Assembly: GCA_020216985.1 (NCBI GenBank)
Contig: JAIWOH010000078.1
Span: 1 to 10,000 of the forward strand
DNA length: 10,000 nucleotides
Direction of reading: 5' to 3'
DNA from: Nitrospira sp.
Lineage (GTDB): Bacteria; Nitrospirota; Nitrospiria; Nitrospirales; Nitrospiraceae
In this document: positions 142-10,000 of the stretch, in pieces
Position numbering within the stretch: position 1 is the stretch's first letter
Layout of the letters: the number at the start of each line of letters is the position of its first letter
The notes under the pieces: model-generated
What the model was told of the DNA's origin: nothing
The model's input: the letters and a program-made list of their open reading frames with translations, nothing else
The model's database searches: none
Program-made: the position numbers and the translations under genes

Positions 142-2049
142 TCAGAGGCTTTTCGGCAACAAAACCGTAAACGTCGTCCCCTTTCCCTCCTCGCTTTCGA
201 CGGTAATCGTGCCCTGATGTTCGTCGATGATCCCCTTGACGACGGTCAGCCCAAGACCGGTCCCCTTGCCGAATTCTTTCGTCGTGAAGAACGGCTCGAA
301 CACCTTCGGCAGCATCTCTTGCGGAATCCCGTGACCCGTATCGGCCACCGTGAGCTTGACCGAGTTCTGATCCTGGGCCAATCCGATTCGCAAGGTCCCC
401 CCCTGTGGCATCGCATGAATCGCGTTCGCCACCAAATTGATGAACACCTGGCTCATTTGATCCGCGTCGGCCATCACGCTGGGGCATCGATCGTCCACCA
501 TCAATTCCACCGTTACATGGTTCCGATCGAGCCGTTCTCGAAACAGCTCGATGCCGTCTTCGACGACGTCCCTCAGATGGAGCGGTCTTCGCTCGGGAGG
601 CTTTCGTCTGGCGAACGCGAGCAATTGGTTCATGACCCTGGTAATGCGTTCAACCTGGGCGATGATCGTCTTGAGGCTTTTCTTGATCGACTCGTCATTT
701 ACGCGATCCATCAAATACTCGGCGCGGCCCAAAATCACGTTCATCGGCGTACCGATTTCGTGCGCCATGCCGGAGGCGAGCGTGCCGAGCTCTGCGATCC
801 GCTCGGTCCTCTGGAGCTGTTCCTGAACCTGTTTGAGCTCCGTCACATCAATACCGGTCGCCACGATGTAATCCGCTCGCCCCTCCGTATCGGGAATCAC
901 CGTATTGGCCCATGCAATGCGCCGTCTCCTGCCGTCTTTGCCCACCCAATCGTGCTCCTGTTCATGGTGAAGCGTTCTCTCCACGAGTCGCTCGAATGCC
1001 GACTTGACGGATTCCACTTCTTCAGGAGCCAGCAAGAACTCCCAGACCGCTCTCCCCATGACTTCTTCCGAACTGTAGCCGGTCGCCTGCTCGCAGGCGC
1101 GATTGAAGCGGAGAATCCTGCCTTCTCGATCCAACACGACGACCAACGCCCCCGCGGTTTCCAAGACCGCCTCGATGAATGCGTGTTGTCTCCGCAGTTC
1201 TTCCAATACCCGTTGATGCTCGGTGATGTCACGGAGAATGACGGTATAGTAACGCTTGCCCTCGACGGAGACGTGCGAAATGGCCGCCTCGATTGGAAAC
1301 TCTTCGCCGTTGGAGCGGAGTCCCATCACCGTCCCCAGTTTGCCCATTTTTCGGTTCGTCACGTTGGATTGTCCGAACGCCTGCACTTGTTGCCGATGTG
1401 TGTCGCGGAACCGGGCCGGCAGGAAGCGATCAAGGGAATTCCCGACGGCCTCTTCCGCGGAACACCCGAACATCTGCTCGGCCGCCCGGTTGAACAACAC
1501 GACCTTCTGCTCGTGATCCGTGGTGATGATGGCGTCCATGGCGGATTGGATGATGCTGTCCAGTCGCAGTTGGCTGACCAGCAGTTTTTCCTCCGCCATT
1601 CGCAGACCGGCGGCGGCCCCCGCCGCCGTTTCGGTCGCCTGGGAGCTGGCCTGCTGCGCCTCAATCATCAGTCCTTGGGCATGGACCCGTTCGACTCGCT
1701 CGGACTTGAGTTCATCTTGCGCGCGCTTGTAACGGACCAGTCCTGTCGCGATCATCCAGAGGATCGCCGTGCCCAACGCTCGGTTGAACAACTCAGCGGG
1801 GGCCGACTCCGCCCCCGGCTTAAGCAAAAAGACGGCCCACACGAGCACCGTCGCCAAGGCGGCATAGGTGAGCGGGAGAGACCGGCCCGGCAAGACGAAC
1901 GTCAGGAGCAACGAGAGGACATAGAGCATCGAGGCCGCCATTTCGAGCGGCGCCAGTGCATCGATCAGTAAGACGACGATCGTGACGGTCGCGACCACCG
2001 TCGGTGCCACGCGCATGATTCGACGACCTATCTTTTTCATCCGATCCAT
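142..2049 (-). CDS. Membrane-bound PAS-PAS sensor histidine kinase
   Basis: A 635-residue sensor kinase of a two-component system, most likely phosphorylating the NtrC-type regulator encoded 55 bases upstream. The N-terminus has about four hydrophobic segments (roughly 15-32, 36-54, 58-77, 90-104) that should anchor it in the inner membrane with almost no periplasmic domain. An Ala/Gln/Glu-rich, probably helical linker follows (106-160), then two PAS domains (about 160-277 and 286-406), the second ending in the usual IDVTELK connector. The HisKA domain has the H-box MAHEIGTP with phospho-accepting His430. The ATPase domain shows the N-box ([10 protein letters not shown], Asn542), G1 DTGHGIP (570-576), the F-box FEPFFTTK (584-591) and G2 GTGLGL (596-601), so it should be catalytically competent. 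The PAS domains show no obvious cofactor clue, so the signal is unknown. Met4 is an alternative start. Confidence 0.95.
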
Positions 2050-2104
2050 CCCGGCCTGAGTCGGAGCAGGCGCCCCCGCTCCCCTAGATGGTCAGAGACG
2101 GTCC

Positions 2105-3484
2105 CTAGTCTTCCGGGTGAGGTTTCCCTTCGATTTCGGCAAGTTTGCGATAGAGGGTCTTGCGATCGATGCCCAGGACATGGGCGGCCTGATACTTGTT
2201 GCCGCCGGTCTTTTCGAGAATCTTTTTAATGTATTCCTTTTCGACCTCGTGCAAAGGCAGACTCTTCTCCGCCGCTTCGTCCAGCACCCGGCGGTCGCCG
2301 CGTGCCCCTTGCACCGCCGGAGGCAAATCATCCGGGGACACCTTGTCTCCGCGGCTCAACGTGATGGCCCGTTCGATCACGTTTTCGAGTTCGCGCACAT
2401 TGCCCGGCCAGGCATAATCGATCAACATCGCCAACGCCGCTTCGCTGATCCCTTTGACCGGTTTTCCTCCCGCCTCGGCGCACTTCTTCAAAAACGCATC
2501 GACCAGCAGCGGAATATCCTCCCGCCGTTCGCGCAGAGGCGGCAGTTTTAATTCAATGACGTTGAGCCGATAGTAGAGGTCTTCGCGGAACCGCTTGTTC
2601 TTCACTTCGTCGGCCAGGTTCAGATTAGTCGCCGCGATGATCCGCACGTCCACCGCGATCGGCTTGGTGGCGCCGACTCGCCTGACCTCTCTTTCCTGGA
2701 TCGCCCGCAACAGCTTGGCCTGCAACATGAGCGGCAGCTCGCTGATCTCGTCGAGAAACAAGGTCCCCTTCTGCGCTTCCTCGAACAATCCCCGTTTGTC
2801 CACCTTGGCATCGGTAAACGCCCCCCGCATGTGCCCGAACAACTCGCTCTCCAACAGTTGCTCCGGAATCGCGGCGCAGTTGACGGGAATAAACGGCGCC
2901 TCCTTGCGGCTGCTGTTGTAATGGATCGCCTTGGCGACCAGCTCCTTTCCGGTCCCGCTTTCCCCCGTGATCAACACGTTGGTCGGACTGTCGGCCACCC
3001 GGCGAATCAAATCAAACACCGCCTGAATCGCTTTGCTCTTGCCCAAGATCTGGTGAAAACTGTATTCCTTGCGCACTTCCCGACGGAGGCGGTCCACTTC
3101 TCTCCGGAGCGCCGCTTCCCTGATCACCCGCTCGACGACCCGGATCAGCTCGTCCTTCTTGACCGGTTTGGTGAGATAGTCGCTCGCACCGTGCTTCATC
3201 GCTTCGACGGCGGTATCCACCGATCCGAACGCGGTCATGAGCACCACATTGACCTCGGGGTACTCTCGTTTGATTTGATTGAGCAGTTCGAGCCCCTGCA
3301 TGCCTTTCATCCGAAGATCCGTCAGCACCACGGCATAATCTTCTTCCGCCAGGAGCTTCAAGGCTTCTTCGCCGCTTCCGGCCACGGATACCTGATGCCC
3401 TCGATCTTTCAACATATCCTGGGCCAATTCCCGCATGTCGGCATCGTCATCGACGACCAGGATCGCTCCCCATTCTTCCGTCAT
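2105..3484 (-). CDS. NtrC-family sigma-54-dependent response regulator
   Basis: A 459-residue regulator with the order receiver, AAA+, Fis-type HTH. The receiver (about 6-120) has the acidic pocket Asp12/Asp13, phospho-acceptor Asp56 (LTDLRM), Thr84 and Lys106, so it should accept phosphate. The AAA+ domain (about 146-375) has Walker A GESGTGKE (174-181), Walker B LFLDE (Asp245-Glu246) and the sensor II stretch GNVREL (361-366). The sigma-54 contact loop reads GAFTDA (221-226) instead of GAFTGA. The C-terminal HTH is at about 415-450 (GGNKYQAAHVLGIDRKTLYR). The start is supported by GGAG five bases before the ATG. The gene lies immediately upstream of the histidine kinase in the same direction, the usual layout for a cognate pair. 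Its targets cannot be read from the sequence; I found no convincing sigma-54 promoter (GG-N10-GC with TGGCAC/TTGC context) directly in front of it. Confidence 0.96.
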   Translation of the reverse strand: MTEEWGAILVVDDDADMRELAQDMLKDRGHQVSVAGSGEEALKLLAEEDYAVVLTDLRMKGMQGLELLNQIKREYPEVNVVLMTAFGSVDTAVEAMKHGASDYLTKPVKKDELIRVVERVIREAALRREVDRLRREVRKEYSFHQILGKSKAIQAVFDLIRRVADSPTNVLITGESGTGKELVAKAIHYNSSRKEAPFIPVNCAAIPEQLLESELFGHMRGAFTDAKVDKRGLFEEAQKGTLFLDEISELPLMLQAKLLRAIQEREVRRVGATKPIAVDVRIIAATNLNLADEVKNKRFREDLYYRLNVIELKLPPLRERREDIPLLVDAFLKKCAEAGGKPVKGISEAALAMLIDYAWPGNVRELENVIERAITLSRGDKVSPDDLPPAVQGARGDRRVLDEAAEKSLPLHEVEKEYIKKILEKTGGNKYQAAHVLGIDRKTLYRKLAEIEGKPHPED

Positions 3485-3760: not shown

Positions 3761-4531
3761 TTAGATTCCCGCGTACCATTCATATCCTTGGTCCTCCCAG
3801 TAGCCGCCCTTCCCTCCGGCGATCCCGGAGAGCGACTCGACCAGTTCGATCCGCTCGATATACTTGGCCTGCTTGTATCCTAATTGTCGCTCGAACCTCA
3901 GGCGCAAAGGCGCGCCATGGGGAACATCGAGCGATCGGCCGTTCAGTTCATAGGCCAGGATCGTCTGGGGATGATAACAATCTGCGATCGCGATGCTCTC
4001 ATAGTACGGTACCCCTTCGTCGTCCACATCCGCGCAGTGAAAGACAGCATATCTTGCGTTCAAGAGGGGTTGAACCTTGTGCATCAGATCGCCGAGCGGC
4101 ACGCCAGTCCACTTGCCGATGGCGCTCCAGCCTTCGACACAGTCATGCCGGGTGATCTGCGTTCGCGCCGGCATCTCCTTGATGGCCGCCGGCGAAATCA
4201 GCATGGGGGTCGTCACCAACCCGTCGATCAACAGATTCCAACCGGCAAACCCATTCTCGGCCTTGGCGGCATAGTCTGCAGTCCCGGGATCGGTGTTGCC
4301 GTTTGCCGGAAAAACCGCCGAGATATCCGATTCGCCATATTCCTTTGCCAGAGCCGAGGCCGGCACCACGGCTCGCTGCACGGCGCCGGTCAGTCGCTCG
4401 GTATTCTGCAACAGCCGGGACAACCAACTGTTCCGAGTGACGTTGTCGCAGCCGGCAAGCACCGCCAAACTTGCACCCCCGAGGGCGCCTTTCAGGAGCC
4501 GGCGGCGTGTCATGATCGGTCTATGCTTCAT
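3761..4531 (-). CDS. Tat-exported lipoprotein molybdopterin oxidoreductase (sulfite oxidase/MsrP superfamily)
   Basis: A 256-residue molybdenum-cofactor enzyme of the sulfite oxidase superfamily (oxidoreductase molybdopterin-binding domain, about 95-235). The N-terminus carries a twin-arginine signal (TRRRLLKG, residues 8-15), then a short hydrophobic stretch ending in LAGC with Cys28 as probable lipidation site, so the enzyme should be folded with cofactor in the cytoplasm, exported and tethered to the membrane. Cys131 in HDCVEGWS is the expected molybdenum ligand. The C-terminal part has the usual PHGAPLRLRFERQLGYK region (204-220). Met1 is supported by GAGGTG seven bases upstream, and the start overlaps the preceding cytochrome gene by 11 bases, implying coupled translation and an electron-transfer pair. 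Substrate is not readable: sulfite oxidation, or methionine sulfoxide reduction as in MsrP/YedY, are both possible; the neighbouring Met-rich peptide favours the latter. Confidence 0.9.
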   Translation of the reverse strand: MKHRPIMTRRRLLKGALGGASLAVLAGCDNVTRNSWLSRLLQNTERLTGAVQRAVVPASALAKEYGESDISAVFPANGNTDPGTADYAAKAENGFAGWNLLIDGLVTTPMLISPAAIKEMPARTQITRHDCVEGWSAIGKWTGVPLGDLMHKVQPLLNARYAVFHCADVDDEGVPYYESIAIADCYHPQTILAYELNGRSLDVPHGAPLRLRFERQLGYKQAKYIERIELVESLSGIAGGKGGYWEDQGYEWYAGI

Positions 4532-5456
4532 GGCGACTCACCTCATGCTTGACGACGAACCACCCGGTGATCATTGACCGAAGGTTGTTGATCAGTCCCG
4601 TGAAGATCACTTCGATAACATGAATGACGATGAACCCGACGAACGAAAAGCAGGCGAGAAAATGAATCGTCCGCGCCCCCTGCCGTCCGCCGAAGACGGT
4701 CGGCAGCCAGGGAAGAGCCGCGTCGATGGTCGGAGACATCGCGAGGCCCGTCAGCACGATCACGGGCGCCATGCCGAACAGCACCACGAGATACGCCAAC
4801 TGTTGAAGCACGTTGTACCGTTTCGCATCATCACCCCCTGGATGCCTGAGACGGAGATGATCGCCGATCGTTCGACCGACAGCCCGGAGATCTCTGCCGG
4901 TCGGGACCAAATCACGGGTGACGTGGCGGCTGAACAACGCATAGCAGAAAAAGAGAACGCCGTTGATCACAAATAACCAGGCAAACAAGAGGTGCCACTG
5001 CCGTCCCATGGCGAGCCATTTGGCGCTGGGGATGGTCGCCCAGGCAGGAAAGGCCCGCCTCGATCCATCTGAATAGCCGAGGACGCCGGTGGTATCGAGT
5101 TCCACACCAAGGACGGTCGTGACCCCCTTCACCTCACCCGTCTCGGTGTGGAGCGAGCGGATGGCGAGCAGCGCCCGCTCGCGATCCGAGCGGTCTCCCC
5201 AATACAGAGCCGGGTGGGCATTGAAAATCTGCAGGCCGCTCATGATCAGAATGACGAGGATCGGGACATTGAGCCAGTGACTGATCAGCACCGGCAGCCG
5301 GTGGCGGTATACCCGCTCAACCACGGGCGGGACGGAAGAAACGTGCGCATCGGGAGTTGAGCCGACCAGTGGAGCCTGCGAGGCAGGAAACTCCGGCCTC
5401 GCATACCGTTCGTCGGCCCGCGCCAATTCCCCCGCTGATTCAATGGGCGTGGCCAT
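4521..5456 (-). CDS. Cytochrome b561-type membrane electron-transfer subunit
   Basis: A 311-residue integral membrane protein of the b-type cytochrome class related to cytochrome b561 and the NiFe-hydrogenase cytochrome subunit. Four hydrophobic helices are visible (about 53-78, 153-176, 216-240, 262-290). Candidate haem ligands lie in the expected helices: His60 (ISHWLN), His155 (RQWHLLFAW), His265 (RTIHFLACF) and His279 (VIHVIEVIF), enough for two haems b. A roughly 75-residue hydrophilic loop separates helices 1 and 2. The first 50 residues are hydrophilic and low in conservation signals. The start is supported by GAGGTG a few bases upstream. It overlaps the molybdoenzyme gene and most likely passes quinol electrons to it, or takes electrons from it. 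It is not recognisably the six-helix MsrQ/YedZ ferric-reductase type. Confidence 0.9.
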   Translation of the reverse strand: MATPIESAGELARADERYARPEFPASQAPLVGSTPDAHVSSVPPVVERVYRHRLPVLISHWLNVPILVILIMSGLQIFNAHPALYWGDRSDRERALLAIRSLHTETGEVKGVTTVLGVELDTTGVLGYSDGSRRAFPAWATIPSAKWLAMGRQWHLLFAWLFVINGVLFFCYALFSRHVTRDLVPTGRDLRAVGRTIGDHLRLRHPGGDDAKRYNVLQQLAYLVVLFGMAPVIVLTGLAMSPTIDAALPWLPTVFGGRQGARTIHFLACFSFVGFIVIHVIEVIFTGLINNLRSMITGWFVVKHEVSRHEA

Positions 5457-5516
5457 CCCTCACCTCTCGATCCCGCAAATCCTCGCCTACCATTTCGGCC
5501 GTAGATGGGCCTGGTC

Positions 5517-5813
5517 TTACTTGCCCATGGCGCCTTTCATCTCACCTTTCATCGTGTCTTTGTGCGCCTTCATGTCACCTTTCATGGCATCCTTCTGGAC
5601 CTTCATGTCATCCTTCATGGCGTCATGCTGACTCTTCATCTCGCTTTTCATCGCCTCTTTCTCGGACTTCATCTCATCCTGTTTCGCTTTCATCGCTCCT
5701 TTCATCTCTCCTTTCATCTCGCTCTTCGCCGCGCCCATCTCATCGGCGTGCGAGAGCACGCCAGACCCGACGAGATACATGACCGCCACAACCGACATCA
5801 GTGCTTTCTTCAT
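5517..5813 (-). CDS. Exported Met/Lys-rich repeat peptide (pentapeptide MXKDX family, MrpX-like)
   Basis: A 98-residue small protein. Residues 1-23 form a Sec signal peptide (MKKALMSVVAV..., probable cleavage after SHA), leaving about 75 residues of almost pure Met, Lys, Glu, Asp, Gly, Ala, Ser. The mature part holds 14 methionines, most followed by Lys, and no Cys, Trp, Tyr, Phe, Leu, Ile or Pro. It resembles the MXKDX pentapeptide-repeat family; MrpX of Azospira suillum, a methionine-rich sink for hypochlorite, is of this general kind. Expected to be a charged helical periplasmic peptide. The start is fixed by AGGAGG six bases before the ATG; a longer upstream reading would overlap the YHS gene and has no support. 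Placed between the YHS protein and the cytochrome/molybdoenzyme pair. A metal-binding or other protective role is an alternative to oxidant scavenging. Confidence 0.88.
   Translation of the reverse strand: MKKALMSVVAVMYLVGSGVLSHADEMGAAKSEMKGEMKGAMKAKQDEMKSEKEAMKSEMKSQHDAMKDDMKVQKDAMKGDMKAHKDTMKGEMKGAMGK
5526..5657 (-). repeat. Four tandem 33-base units encoding 11-residue Met-Lys repeats
   Basis: Inside the Met-rich peptide gene, residues 53-96 divide into four consecutive 11-residue units: EAMKSEMKSQH, DAMKDDMKVQK, DAMKGDMKAHK and DTMKGEMKGAM. The common pattern is D/E-x-M-K-x-D/E-M-K-x-x-x. The DNA is similar but not identical between units, so this is an aged tandem duplication kept in frame. 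An 11-residue period equals three helical turns. Confidence 0.85.
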
Positions 5814-5868
5814 GACAAACCTCCTGTTGTATGGTGAAGGAACGGATATGGTGGAATACGGCATGACG

Positions 5869-6330
5869 CTACTCCCGTACCTTGGCAAGCTTGTTCGCCG
5901 CCAGACAGTTCGCGTCCGCTTGGCGGACGTAGCCCTGGACATCTGAAAGCCATTGCGCTCGCACGCTCTCGCTGTAGTTGAGAGAGAGCCTGTCACCCAG
6001 AACCGTCAACGCCTCGAGGTCGATGGCGGCCTTGTACTCTTTGGTCATGCCGTAGGCGCAATAGCCACCGTACTGCGGGGCGAATTTCTCCGGATCGTTT
6101 GCGAAGGCCTCGCGGTGAGCTTCCGAGGCAAAGTAAAACGTCGAACCTTCGTGTTCTGCCGAGAAATCCGGCGAGCCCTTCACCGCCTTCTGCTCGGTAA
6201 AATAGGCGACGGGGTCGTACCCCTCGATGGCGGCCCCGTTCCGCTCAAAGTACTGGCCAGCGGAAGCGGAAACGACGCTTGCTGCAAGTAGAACGACTAC
6301 CGTCGCACCGCACCGAATCATTTCCCTCAT
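5869..6330 (-). CDS. Exported YHS-domain protein
   Basis: About 153 residues from the ATG at 6330. The N-terminus is a signal peptide (hydrophobic core ATVVVLLAASVV, probable cleavage after SASA near residue 24). The rest is a typical YHS-domain protein: NGAAIEGYDPVAYF, then KGSPDFSAEHEG, the FANDPEKFAPQYGGYCAYG stretch and LNYSESVRAQWL. YHS domains are short modules found in metal-handling proteins and in stand-alone exported proteins of unknown function. Two cysteines (about 91 and 142) could form a disulfide. A longer reading begins at a TTG (6375) with no ribosome-binding site and adds an uncharged, non-signal-like extension, so I prefer the ATG with AGGGAG eight bases upstream; the ATG three codons later is also possible. 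It lies 55 bases before the Met-rich peptide gene and is probably co-transcribed. Precise function unknown. Confidence 0.88.
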   Translation of the reverse strand: MREMIRCGATVVVLLAASVVSASAGQYFERNGAAIEGYDPVAYFTEQKAVKGSPDFSAEHEGSTFYFASEAHREAFANDPEKFAPQYGGYCAYGMTKEYKAAIDLEALTVLGDRLSLNYSESVRAQWLSDVQGYVRQADANCLAANKLAKVRE

Positions 6331-6355
6331 CTCCCAATCTCCCTCGCATCGACCG

Positions 6356-6397
6356 TCACCGTGTCGCACGGACAACCGTCAACGCCACGGCGTTCAT
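6356..6397 (-). CDS. Possible 13-codon leader peptide upstream of the YHS gene
   Basis: A short reading frame, MNAVALTVVRATR then TGA, starts eight bases after a strong AGGAG and stops 25 bases before the YHS start, in a different frame. It has no resemblance to known attenuator peptides and no run of one amino acid. Its only support is the very good ribosome-binding site, which otherwise has no gene to serve, and the hairpin that covers this site. It may be a leader peptide, or chance. Confidence 0.25.
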   Translation of the reverse strand: MNAVALTVVRATR

Positions 6398-6400
6398 ATC

Positions 6401-6424
6401 GTCCTCTCCTTTCTAGGAGGAGAC
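6401..6424 (-). promoter_or_regulatory. Hairpin covering a Shine-Dalgarno sequence
   Basis: On the transcribed strand, GTCTCCTCCT and AGGAGAGGAC flank the loop AGAA. They can pair over ten positions with one G-U pair and one C-A mismatch. The right arm contains the AGGAGAGG ribosome-binding site of the 13-codon frame that follows. It lies in the 144-base gap between the anti-sigma and YHS genes, where a change from regulatory to effector genes occurs, so it may tune translation or processing. Confidence 0.35.
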
Positions 6425-6474
6425 TCTCTCGGGACCGCGCTGGATGCGGCCATCATGGCCGGTCGCTCATTCGG

Positions 6475-6741
6475 TCACTGTTTTCGGTGCCGCGCCACGA
6501 ACGCCCCTCGTAGCCCGTCGGGATCGGCCAGCGCCTCAGGCGCTTTGGGCAACAATCCGACCAGCCGGCGCACGAAAGCAATATGCTTCACATAGGCCTC
6601 ACAACCGGCGCAGACGGCGAGGTGCAGCACAATCCGCGCATTGCGACCGTCCCCCGCACACGCATCGAGATAGGCGGAGGTCCATTCGGCGACTTCCCGG
6701 CATGTGATCTCGCTTGCCGCCTCTTCACCGCTCTGCGTCAT
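6475..6741 (-). CDS. Soluble zinc-binding anti-sigma factor (ZAS type)
   Basis: About 88 residues from the ATG at 6741. It carries the zinc anti-sigma signature HxxxCxxC (His40, Cys44, Cys47, reading HLAVCAGC) with an upstream cysteine at Cys14 (ITCREVAEW), which together form the usual ligand set. There is no membrane segment, so it should be cytoplasmic, like the thiol-responsive RsrA/ChrR type. It follows the ECF sigma gene and should hold that sigma factor inactive until zinc or thiol chemistry changes. The start was chosen because GGAGG lies five bases before this ATG; a TTG start at 6789 would add 16 residues and shorten the gap to the sigma gene from 60 to 12 bases, and remains possible. 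The helix after the zinc motif (VKHIAFVRRLVGLL) is a typical sigma-binding continuation. Confidence 0.85.
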   Translation of the reverse strand: MTQSGEEAASEITCREVAEWTSAYLDACAGDGRNARIVLHLAVCAGCEAYVKHIAFVRRLVGLLPKAPEALADPDGLRGAFVARHRKQ

Positions 6742-6801
6742 GGGCGCCTCCCCCTCATCCGCTGTTGAGCAGTCGCCCAAGACCGACAATCCTTACAACC
6801 C

Positions 6802-7521
6802 TCACGCACGGTCTTTCAGATAGGTTTCGACGGCTTGCCGCACCCGCTCTCTGGCTCGATGCAACCGCACATACAGGTTGGTTTCCGTGATCTGCAACAT
6901 TGCACAGACGTCCGCCGACTCCACCCCCTCCATGTCGCGCAGGACCAGGACGGTTCTCAGCGTCGGCGGCAGTGCGTCGATCGCTCGCCGCATCGCCGCA
7001 ACTGCCTGTTTGGACGCCAGGAGCTTCTCAGGAGTTTGGTCATCCCACGGCCGCGGCGGAAACGCCCAATGCCCGGCCCGTTCACCTGATTGATGGAAGC
7101 GAGCCGGATCCACCGCCTCTTCCCCTTCATCGTCGATCGATTCCAAGGCCGAAAAGACCGTATGCCGTCTCTCCCGCATCCCTCGATCCTTCGCCTTGTG
7201 GATCAGAATTCCGAAAATCCAGGATCGCAACGAGGACCGCCCCTCGAACAGGTCAAGAGACTGGATGACCGTCATCCAGGTGTCTTGCGTCACCTCCTCC
7301 GCGACTTCCCGATCAGCCACAAATCCCATCGCCATGCGGATGAGCGCGCCATGGTGCTTCGCGACCAGGCTGTCGAACGCCGCCTCTTCGCCCCGGCGGA
7401 GCCGGGTGATGAGCATGTGATCGTCCTCCGTCAACAGGAACTCGGTTGCGGACATGGTCGGGGCTACTCGAGACAGGCTTTGCCCCGATGATCCGGTATG
7501 TGCCCCGGCGACTCCGTTCAT
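6802..7521 (-). CDS. ECF-type RNA polymerase sigma factor
   Basis: A 239-residue group IV sigma factor. Region 2 spans about 36-115, with the core-binding and -10-recognising stretch around VAEEVTQDTWMTVIQSL and SLRSWIFGILIHKAKDR. Region 4 spans about 172-232 (LPPTLRTVLVLRDMEG, then the HTH helix TETNLYVRLHRARERVR). There is no region 1.1 or 3. The linker between the two regions is long (about 116-170), acidic, and contains GHWAFPPRPW (150-159), a motif I associate with a subset of ECF factors paired with small zinc anti-sigma proteins. The start overlaps the STAS stop in an ATGA and is preceded by AGGAGG at six bases. It probably directs transcription of its own operon and the downstream envelope genes; I could not identify a convincing ECF promoter by eye. 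Confidence 0.93.
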   Translation of the reverse strand: MNGVAGAHTGSSGQSLSRVAPTMSATEFLLTEDDHMLITRLRRGEEAAFDSLVAKHHGALIRMAMGFVADREVAEEVTQDTWMTVIQSLDLFEGRSSLRSWIFGILIHKAKDRGMRERRHTVFSALESIDDEGEEAVDPARFHQSGERAGHWAFPPRPWDDQTPEKLLASKQAVAAMRRAIDALPPTLRTVLVLRDMEGVESADVCAMLQITETNLYVRLHRARERVRQAVETYLKDRA

Positions 7522-7787
7522 GATCGGCCTCCTCCCTGGAGCAACGCCGTGATGAAACCCGGAGCGCTCATGAGCGACACGTGGCTGTCCGACAAACTTC
7601 TCAGCACTTCGATCCCCGCTTCATCGATGTAATTGACGTTCGCGCAGTCCACATACACGGCTTTCTTGCACCGAAGGTAGGCGCGACATTCACCGTCGAG
7701 GAGCGCCGCCCATTGCTCGGTGATCTTGCCCTCCAATTTGATCAACACATCACCGTCACTTTCGTGAACCTTCGTGATTTTCAGCAT
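7518..7787 (-). CDS. STAS-domain protein
   Basis: An 89-residue single STAS domain, the fold of anti-anti-sigma factors such as SpoIIAA. The start is set by AAGGAGG seven bases before the ATG. The stretch VYVDCANVNYIDEAGIEVL corresponds to the phosphorylation-site loop; where SpoIIAA has DSSG, this protein has Asp55-Glu56-Ala57-Gly58, so the phosphorylatable serine is replaced by glutamate. The gene overlaps the ECF sigma gene by four bases (ATGA), so the two products should be made in step. Partner-switching STAS proteins normally act with a SpoIIAB/RsbW-type kinase, which is absent here; it may instead bind the sigma or anti-sigma factor, or act as a scaffold. Role unknown. Confidence 0.85.
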   Translation of the reverse strand: MLKITKVHESDGDVLIKLEGKITEQWAALLDGECRAYLRCKKAVYVDCANVNYIDEAGIEVLRSLSDSHVSLMSAPGFITALLQGGGRS

Positions 7788-8095
7788 TGCCCGTCCTCCT
7801 TCTCCCGTTCAGCTTGATGAGAAGCTGTTCAGCAACCGCGATGCCATGGCGGCACCGCCGCACCAGGAAAGACCTAAGCGACTGATGCACAAGAGGAAAT
7901 GGCCGCCACGCAGGGGAAGGAGTCGGATCGATGGGAACGAACGATTCCCAAAATATTGTGAGCGTCCCAATTACATGGGAAAGTAGAACGCCGTCATTGA
8001 TCAAGCGTCATTCGTAGATCGGTATGCGACGGAGAGAGGAGGACGGACCATGATCTCGGAGAACGTCACGGTTGACGGATGACGACCAACGAGGC
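7788..8095 (-). promoter_or_regulatory. Non-coding region with clustered inverted repeats, probable operon promoter/operator
   Basis: This 308-base gap separates the sigma-54 activator from the STAS-sigma operon, and I see no credible gene in it. It holds TGGGAA-N7-TTCCCA (7932-7950) and, 14 bases on, TCCCA-N6-TGGGA (7965-7980), four copies of the same half-site in mirrored order. Beyond it lies the perfect palindrome TTGATCAA (7997-8004) flanked by direct repeats CGTCATT 14 bases apart (7992-7998 and 8006-8012). A small hairpin, CGTCA-loop4-TGACG (8064-8077), follows the activator gene but lacks a T run. A weak GG-N10-GC pair occurs near 7855 on the minus strand. The repeats suggest specific regulator binding; which protein binds is not readable. 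Confidence 0.45.
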
Positions 8096-10000
8096 TTAGG
8101 CGGGGCGGGAGATGCCCAACTTCTTCATTCGCGCTTCCAGGGTCGTGGCGTTGAGGCCGAGAATCCTGGCCGCACCTTTCTCGCCGCTGACACGCCAATT
8201 GGTGCGGCCGAGCACGGCGAGGATATGGGCTCGTTCGACCTCCTCCAATGTGGCAGGCCCCGCGTTGAGGCCCGCCTCGGTGTTTCGCGGCATCCACTCG
8301 TCCAGCTTGAGTTCCGGACCTTGATTCAGGATCACCGCTCGCTCGATCACATGTTCCAGCTCGCGGATGTTGCCCGGCCAGGTATAGCTCTTGAGCCGCT
8401 GCATCGCCGAACCAGACACTGATTCGATAGGCTTCCCCATCCTAGAGGCGAACTTCTTGACGAAGTAGGACACCAAGAGCGGAATATCCTGTGTCCGATC
8501 CCGCAAAGCCGGCAGCGCGATGGGGAAGACGTTCAGGCGATAATAGAGATCCGAGCGGAATCGCCCGTCGCGCATCTCTTTCTCCAGGTCACGGTTCGTT
8601 GCGGCGATCACCCGGACATCGACCTTCATGGTCCTGGTGCTTCCCAGCCGTTCGAATTCTCCCTCCTGGAGCACGCGCAGGAGCTTCGTCTGGAGCTCCA
8701 TTGGAATCTCACCGACCTCGTCCAGAAAGATCGTGGCCTTGTCGGCCGATTCGAACCGGCCGATCTTCTTCGCCAAGGCGCCGGTGAATGCGCCTTTCTC
8801 GTGGCCGAAGAGTTCGCTCTCGATCAAGCCGGCTGGGATCGCCGCACAGTTGACCTTGATCAACACCCCGTGTTTTCTCCGGCTCAGATTGTGGATGGCG
8901 CGCGCAACCAACTCCTTGCCTGTCCCAGTCTCGCCAGTCACCAGGACCGTTGCATCCGTGCCAGCCACTTTCTCGATGGCCTGCAGAACTTTTTTAATCG
9001 GTGCAGAGACTCCGATGATCTCCTCGAAATTGTGTTCTGTTTTGATCTCTTCCCGAAGGTACAGGTTCGCCGCTTCGAGTCGCGCTTTCTCCTGTTCCAT
9101 CAGCACCCGCTCGGTGATGTCGAGAAACATTGTCCTCGTGTACGTGCCGCTGGAGTGCGGTTTCGACCACCACTGAATCCACAGGGGCTTCCCGTTGTCT
9201 TTCCGGCGGAGTTCGAGGACCACCCCGCCGGTATCGGTCCCCCGTCCGACCGACTCAAACGCCTCTTTCAGGCGGCGTTGGGCTTCCGGCGTATCAGGAA
9301 TGAAGGATCTGCCGTAGGTCCTTTCGACCTCGTCCGCTGTAATTCCCAGCGTGCGCAAGGCCGCCCGGTTGGCCCGGATGAACTTCGAACCCAGCCCCTC
9401 ATGCACATAGGCGATCGGCGCTTCCTCGAACAGGTCGCGCAACTGTTCCTCGTTCTCCTTGAGTTGGGCATCCATCCGCTCCCGTTCAAGCTCGGCCCCG
9501 GCGCGCACCCCGAAAATCTTAAACACGGGCAGTACCCGCGGGTCGTCGTGCATGGGCTTCGTATCCATCACGGCCAGATGGCCCATAACCATACCGGACC
9601 GATCGGACACCGGAATCGCCAAGTAGCTCTCAACACCCAGCCGTGCCAGATCCTCCCGATGGTCCGGAAACAGATCTTGCACCTTCTCCGGAAACAAACA
9701 GACTTCCCCGGCCAGCACGCGCTCGCAGGGCGTATGGGGCAAATCGTACTCGAAGTTCTCGAGAAAGCCGTCGCCCTTCCAGAAGGCCAATGTCCTCACG
9801 CGGGTGCGAGTCCCTTCGACAAACTTGGAGACAAAGGCATACTGTGTCTGAAGCGCCTCGGCCAAGCTCTTGACGAGGAAGGGGAAAAAGTCCACGCCGG
9901 TGACCGCCGCCGTTCCTTCGTCGATCTTGCGCAATATGAGGTCGCTCTTTCGCAGGGCCTTCTCGAACCGCAGCCGGTCCAACTCCGCTGCCGCCCGCAC
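8096..10000 (-). CDS. Sigma-54-dependent transcriptional activator, GAF-PAS-AAA+-HTH (N-terminus outside window)
   Basis: At least 634 residues, open at the right edge, so the true start lies outside; residue numbers count from the edge. A GAF domain (about 30-172) is followed by a PAS domain (about 185-298, ending in [13 protein letters not shown]), a coiled linker, then the AAA+ domain (about 325-555) with Walker A GETGTGKE (356-363), an intact sigma-54 loop GAFTGA (403-408), Walker B IFLDE (Asp427-Glu428) and GNIREL (543-548). The HTH is at about 590-630 ([20 protein letters not shown]). This is the FhlA-like plan: a sensing N-terminal half in place of a receiver, so it responds to a ligand or redox state and not to a phosphorelay. 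It precedes the STAS-sigma operon in the same direction but is separated by 308 bases. The ligand is unknown. Confidence 0.95.

Follow-up and report, generated by a model that had tools for sequence, protein, structure and literature searches.

A seven-gene locus of Nitrospira is probably this genus's version of a methionine-sponge defence, held under two tiers of control. We found it in a 10,000-nt stretch of Nitrospira sp. DNA (the window; contig JAIWOH010000078.1 of assembly GCA_020216985.1), which comes from a 2.26-Mb genome that is 87% complete. Pfam and NCBIfam searches placed the seven genes collinearly on the minus strand, in the order STAS-domain protein, extracytoplasmic function (ECF) sigma factor (SIG), zinc anti-sigma factor (ZAS), YHS-domain protein, exported Met-rich peptide, membrane cytochrome b (CYB) and molybdoenzyme (MOX). 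See Table 1 for all coordinates. The cluster is conserved across many nitrite-oxidising Nitrospira, and the predicted control circuit is what is new in it.

We propose that the exported peptide acts in the periplasm as a sacrificial target for reactive chlorine, nitrogen or oxygen species. Its methionine sulfoxide, and that of other envelope proteins, would be reduced by the lipid-anchored MOX with electrons that CYB would pass on from quinol. An oxidant-related signal may reach a GAF-PAS activator, which would act on a sigma54 promoter and so lead to synthesis of the STAS protein and the ECF sigma factor. Oxidation of the zinc anti-sigma factor would then free the ECF sigma factor to transcribe the anti-sigma and effector genes.

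Nitrospira drive the oxidation of nitrite in soils, in wastewater and in drinking water, settings to which chlorine and chloramine are applied. With an envelope repair operon that is conserved and whose promoter code can be read, oxidant tolerance would become directly testable in these hard-to-culture bacteria. Titles and abstract openings of the open-licence literature searched held no description of the locus in Nitrospira.

Table 1. Genes and predicted control elements of the locus in the window.
Feature	Position	Strand	Basis or remark
STAS-domain protein	7518..7787	-	PF01740; alignment of 25; not of the phosphorylatable SpoIIAA type
ECF sigma factor (SIG)	6802..7521	-	PF04542, PF08281
Soluble zinc anti-sigma factor (ZAS), zf-HC2	6475..6741	-	PF13490; alignment of 25
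YHS-domain protein with signal sequence, accessory	5869..6330	-	PF04945; NF041384, 138 bits (cutoff 70)
Exported Met/Lys-rich peptide (MrpX-like), signal sequence	5517..5813	-	14 Met in 75 mature residues
CYB, membrane cytochrome b, Ni_hydr_CYTB/b561 family	4521..5456	-	PF01292; invariant His residues, alignment of 10
MOX, molybdoenzyme, twin-Arg and lipobox signal, MsrP-type Cys-Val-Glu	3761..4531	-	PF00174; aligned to MsrP 1xdq
NTRC2, GAF-PAS-sigma54 activator (enhancer-binding protein)	8096..10000	-	PF00158, PF02954, GAF, PAS; 5' end cut by contig end
Sigma54 -24/-12 promoter TGGCA-N6-TTGCT upstream of STAS	7831..7846	-	Sole such site in the window
Palindromic upstream activator site TCCCA-N6-TGGGA	7965..7980	.	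Predicted
Second inverted repeat TGGGAA-N7-TTCCCA	7932..7950	.	Sequence
Predicted ECF promoter TGTAAG-N16-CGAC upstream of anti-sigma gene	6772..6797	-	19/25 loci

Conservation of the locus in Nitrospira

A preliminary description of this DNA, made from its sequence, had listed the same seven genes, and all of them exist, collinear, at the coordinates of Table 1. It had also proposed a search for co-occurrence in related genomes. We carried this out on 59 genomes of the genus, the window's own included, and 39 further genomes of the same order, and the outcome across the genus was strong. A close relative of MOX (E<1e-100) was found in 23 of the 58 other genus genomes, or 24 if we count G034, where the gene is in pieces, and in 1 of the 39 same-order genomes. 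MOX and CYB occur together in 25 of 59 genus genomes (own genome and the fragmented G034 counted), and G035 has CYB without MOX. Close copies of SIG and of STAS mark one identical set of 25/59 genomes. MOX and SIG coincide in 21 genomes with four exceptions each way (Fisher p 2e-8), although p-values such as this one overstate independence because the genomes share descent. The presence of the locus is patchy across the genus. Thresholds for these sets were our own choice: close copies for MOX and CYB, E<1e-25 for STAS, E<1e-80 for sigma, and in-locus copies for the peptide. The sets exclude G048, a 78%-complete genome with a true peptide copy and no MOX, as well as the 95-residue CYB fragment and the broken YHS copy of G001. 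Chlorite dismutase was tried as a marker and discarded, as it matched in 96 of 98 genomes and discriminated nothing.

Gene order is also kept. The succession STAS, sigma, anti-sigma, effectors, CYB, MOX is preserved in each of the 18 genus stretches with both SIG and MOX (window included), some with single genes missing, undetected or past the contig end, and 16 of the 18 also carry the Met-rich peptide. We did not find the peptide in 6 of the 25 MOX-bearing genomes, two of which (G020 and G045) have a contig end near CYB. With G048 added, the MOX-peptide table reads 19/6/2/32. The YHS protein appears dispensable, with fragments or no match in several loci and partial or broken matches in G004, G010, G018 and G037. 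Given the MOX relatives, the recurring gene order and the conservation of the peptide, the locus is not a chance assembly.

The peptide itself has 18 Lys and no Cys in its mature part, with the cleavage site placed by eye. Its signal sequence and Met-Lys repeat are kept in 22 orthologues (window included), whose mature parts contain 16-22% Met. A word-based protein search with the peptide returned 8 relatives. The window's peptide had no match to the MXKDX model TIGR02953 at E up to 10, which a Rhizobium peptide matches at 72 bits.

The CYB and MOX reading frames overlap by 11 nt. For ZAS, the alignment of relatives favours the ATG at 6741 over the TTG of the longest open reading frame, giving a protein of 88 residues with a conserved N-terminal Cys and a His-x3-Cys-x2-Cys motif (25-sequence alignment). 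Visual inspection of the 88 residues showed no membrane segment, and the Pfam search gave no ATPase domain match.

The predicted control circuit

The first proposed tier is a sigma54 system. The strict pattern TGGCA-N6-TTGC lies 53-63 nt upstream of STAS in 24 of 25 loci, compared with 24 of 3188 background segments of 250 nt in which the loci themselves are included. Farther upstream, the TCCCA-N6-TGGGA palindrome starts 113-144 nt before the -24 box in 22 of 25 loci, versus 15 of 1997 background segments. NTRC2 carries a Fis-type DNA-binding end. Wherever a relative's stretch extends far enough, its gene lies upstream of STAS, in some cases with another gene in between. The window's genome also encodes rpoN, so that a -24/-12 promoter, an enhancer-binding protein and the sigma54 gene are all present. 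NTRC2 is the predicted activator of the STAS-sigma promoter.

The second proposed tier is the ECF sigma factor and its putative promoter. TGTAAG-N15-17-CGAC occurs within 100 nt upstream of the anti-sigma gene in 19/25 loci, of CYB in 15/28 and of YHS in 7/19, where base shuffling gave means of ≤0.02 loci. The same 100-nt scan placed it upstream of STAS, sigma, peptide or MOX in no locus. Because the window has the motif upstream of the anti-sigma gene alone, a single transcript running from there to MOX is likely. The motif resembles the ECF16 consensus, (T/C)GTAAC-N17-CGAA as quoted in the excerpted text of PMC8315932 on Brucella, and the neisserial -35 element.

We then looked at where the motif occurs elsewhere. 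The longer form TGTAAGRA-N14-CGAC is found once in the window's own 2.26-Mb genome, at this locus, and a reversed control pattern is also found once. Across six genomes the count was 27, versus 6 for the control, with 9 of the 27 in this locus. Four of the 18 other sites lie upstream of an msrA with a signal sequence (G007, G039, G058 and G053) and one upstream of msrB (G053). The remainder precede DoxX-like, membrane-protein, MOSC, other or no recognised genes, with names judged from the sequences. Among 54 of the 59 genomes (G001, G002, G015, G023 and G048 were excluded, their close msrA copy being missing, broken or partial), the motif precedes msrA in 15/24 sigma-positive, 8/25 sigma-negative and 3/5 paralogue-only genomes. 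The sigma-positive versus sigma-negative comparison gives a one-sided Fisher p of 0.03, or 0.05 with the five paralogue-only genomes added.

The eight sigma-negative genomes with the motif count against our proposal, as they weaken the motif as proof that this sigma factor controls msrA. Upstream of msrA in the window's genome, TGTAAG is present but is not followed by CGAC at the right distance. The motif is probably recognised by several related sigma factors of one family; it supports a methionine-sulfoxide-reductase (Msr) theme but does not prove the regulon of this particular sigma factor.

We also considered partner switching via the STAS protein. In SpoIIAA-type proteins the phospho-acceptor Ser sits in an Asp-Ser-Ser-Gly motif. 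There is no Ser at that place here: the window has Asp-Glu-Ala-Gly, relatives mostly have Asp-x-Arg-Gly, and we rejected this candidate. Partner switching would also call for a kinase as anti-sigma factor, and ZAS gave no ATPase domain match.

The enzyme pair, its peptides and alternative functions

MOX has the features of an exported, lipid-anchored member of the MsrP superfamily. Its twin-Arg pair and lipobox Cys28 are invariant in 38 aligned sequences, and the Cys-Val-Glu motif, which aligns with that of MsrP, is invariant in alignments of 35 and 38 sequences. MsrP is not known to have a lipobox. By sequence, MsrP is the best match, although the score of 90.4 bits against model NF003767 is below the cutoff of 207. 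The SorA, SorT and SoxC models gave 28-34 bits against cutoffs of 420-600, and the Pfam search found no dimerisation domain (PF03404). The molybdenum domain has the sulfite-oxidase fold, with sulfite oxidases at the top of the structural Z ranking and MsrP first in Foldseek. The fold did not discriminate between MsrP and sulfite oxidase, and we rejected it for that purpose. For CYB, PF01292 was the sole domain above its Pfam cutoff, with no match to PF01794, the MsrQ family.

We next examined CYB-MOX pairs outside Nitrospirota, taking the best 80 loci of a genome scan (up to 12.9 kb each), 72 of which bear names other than Nitrospirae or Nitrospira. CYB adjoins MOX in all of these save L122, whose contig begins just before MOX. 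In 20 of the 72 listed non-Nitrospirota loci a compositional scan found a Met-rich peptide within 285 nt of the pair, and it gave no further sense-strand candidate farther out in those loci. This count leaves out L139, an antisense artefact, and includes by eye the peptide of L106, which fails a crude signal-sequence test. SigF/NrsF matches occur in 14 of the 20 peptide-bearing listed loci versus 5 of the 52 others, and two of those five have an MXKDX match. The peptides are of several kinds. Rhizobia and Phyllobacterium have an MXKDX peptide upstream of CYB with divergent SigF/NrsF, other rhizobia a Cys-containing Met-rich peptide downstream of MOX, Salinisphaera and Modicisalibacter an Asp-Asp-Gly-Met type, and Marinobacter another type. 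Most of the 72 listed pairs are without a Met-rich peptide; in its place several are accompanied by a TetR regulator and a hypothetical protein. In an IQ-TREE phylogeny of 88 MOX proteins, it takes 12 changes to account for the Met-rich label, and supported branches force no fewer than 9 of these. The Nitrospirota proteins cluster in a single supported group. L078 and L110, which the compositional scan did not list, were labelled Met-rich from MXKDX homology alone.

This recurrence of one enzyme pair beside dissimilar Met-rich peptides is the best available evidence for methionine sulfoxide as the CYB-MOX substrate, which it supports. It also favours sacrificial methionine buffering as a general, repeatedly evolving strategy. 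A wider proposal, which we hold tentatively and put somewhat short of an even chance, is that CYB-MOX forms a separate and widespread class of respiratory methionine-sulfoxide reductase, built from a b561-type cytochrome and a lipoprotein MsrP-like enzyme, which has repeatedly acquired unrelated sponge peptides. In Nitrospira, the sigma54 activator would set the supply of the ECF sigma factor and the zinc anti-sigma factor would gate it by redox state. If true, the class and its two-tier circuit could underlie nitrifier tolerance to chloramine and reactive nitrogen.

Other functions have to be weighed against methionine-sulfoxide repair. The pair could be a sulfite dehydrogenase, or another enzyme of sulfur or nitrogen oxyanions, feeding quinone, with the Met-rich peptide incidental. 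The shared fold and the top structural Z scores of sulfite oxidases agree with this, as does a second, sulfite-oxidase-like PF00174 protein after the sigma module in L033 and L147. However, the low SorA, SorT and SoxC scores, the missing PF03404 match, the MsrP-aligned Cys-Val-Glu, the Foldseek ranking and the recurring Met-rich peptides all point away from sulfite, and we regard this explanation as very unlikely. The least probable alternative is general quinol or redox homeostasis, of which methionine repair would be one output among alternative-oxidase-like, TlpA-like and dehydrogenase genes of the operon. Alternative-oxidase-like (PF01786), redoxin and glucose-dehydrogenase-like genes do occur within or next to the operon of some genomes, and in L032 the ECF motif lies just upstream of the alternative-oxidase-like gene. 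Yet among 17 relatives' stretches with sigma and MOX, the alternative-oxidase-like gene occurs in 2, redoxin in 5 and the dehydrogenase in 5, compared with 17 for CYB and 15 for the peptide.

A role in copper or metal handling is unlikely. Here the peptide and the YHS protein would bind periplasmic copper, and the molybdoenzyme would repair copper-oxidised methionines. E. coli MsrP is reported to be linked to copper stress (PMC9302797). One CYB-MOX pair, on a Paraburkholderia fungorum plasmid (L058 5797-10804), has genes for CueR, a heavy-metal-associated protein and a metal-transporting type of ATPase (metal P-type) ~1.2 kb away. Met-x3-Met spacing could also bind Cu(I). The peptide lacks Cys, though, and SigF/NrsF and Msr genes, the partners that were looked for, do recur; copper genes were not systematically searched, so this comparison tests the copper explanation weakly.

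Related systems and variant loci

The locus is most like Azospira suillum MrpX-YedY1-YedZ1 (SigF/NrsF) and Brucella BcrXQP (BcrS/AbcS), which, by their descriptions in the source excerpts, likewise combine a Met-rich peptide, an MsrP-superfamily enzyme, a cytochrome and ECF control. In Brucella, HOCl induces bcrXQP, which has a part in resistance to this oxidant (excerpt of PMC8315932). The preliminary description had taken the window locus for a divergent version of the MrpX/YedY1/YedZ1 system. The arrangement of exported peptide, MsrP-superfamily enzyme and membrane cytochrome is indeed the same, and co-occurrence speaks for that reading. The differences it named in the soluble anti-sigma factor, STAS and YHS proteins are genuine (zf-HC2, PF01740 and PF04945 matches): ZAS replaces the six-helix membrane NrsF (DUF1109), and STAS, YHS and the sigma54 input are additions. 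The peptide, too, differs in lying outside TIGR02953. The "different cytochrome" of the preliminary description is right when E. coli MsrQ is the comparison, and wrong for rhizobial MXKDX/SigF loci. Such a locus in Rhizobium CIAT894 shares its CYB and MOX families with the window (CYB is 51% identical), and by way of these loci the cytochrome family is shared with the MrpX/SigF system. The sigma54-to-ECF circuit and the msrA motif are additions to that earlier interpretation.

Other systems are similar in part. E. coli MsrPQ (YedYZ) is likewise a periplasmic molybdoenzyme with a membrane cytochrome and Cys-Val-Glu, from which the window differs in the sub-cutoff MsrP score, the PF01292 cytochrome and the MOX lipobox. 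ZAS has the Cys/His motif and the lack of a membrane segment typical of RsrA/MseR-type anti-sigma factors. In Neisseria, a ZAS anti-sigma factor controls msrA/msrB, and sigmaE-MseR shares with our locus the ECF sigma and ZAS pairing, a GTAAG-like -35 and an Msr target. It differs in its -10 CGTC, its 12-13-nt spacer and the finding of no oxidant response, and the excerpted text mentions no Met-rich peptide or cytochrome pair (all from the excerpt of PMC2893595). The c3566-c3568 operon of uropathogenic E. coli also encodes a cytochrome B, a molybdoenzyme and a Met-rich peptide by its description, and differs in two-component control and protection from hydroperoxides (excerpt of PMC8550376).

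Several variants were seen in relatives. G059, of another family, has sigma and anti-sigma next to CYB-MOX but on the other strand, and yielded no peptide. Some genomes of another family of the order have a related sigma next to STAS and an NTRC2-like activator (L152 of G089 and L153 of G086). G091 has a related sigma with STAS alone seen, and L149 (G072) has one beside YHS; CYB had no match in G072, G089, G086 or G091. In G054 (L147, 5081-9921), STAS, sigma and anti-sigma are followed by a lipoprotein, a redoxin, an outer-membrane-like protein and a sulfite-oxidase-like enzyme, not by CYB-MOX. In L033 (8516-11341), CYB-MOX is followed by a lipoprotein, a redoxin and a sulfite-oxidase-like enzyme. 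The alternative-oxidase-like gene stands in the operon of two genomes, G053 and G052, in which the peptide was not found (L032 12300-12974 and L033 4866-5612). Several Nitrospira loci encode a glucose-dehydrogenase-like zinc enzyme after the anti-sigma gene and before the effector that follows (e.g., L156 5775-6878).

CYB-MOX paralogues, seemingly fused in one frame of ~500-570 residues, are 32-35% identical to CYB and 43-45% to MOX (G053:C1:3024689-3026119, G058:C1:3994289-3995485, G024:C1:224266-225708; also in G045, G001 and G016). L244-L249 encode Met/Lys/Glu-rich signal-sequence proteins with 8-10% Met, ~35-40% identical to the peptide, near a lipoprotein paralogue in 5 of the 6 stretches. 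Groundwater Nitrospirota have another exported Met-Met-rich protein (L069 1969-2553 and L071 1456-2127), 0.7 and 2.9 kb from CYB-MOX. Finally, a PAS histidine kinase and an NtrC-type response regulator are encoded downstream of MOX in the window (142-3484, minus strand), a pair that adjoins the locus in just one of the relatives' stretches examined, L032.

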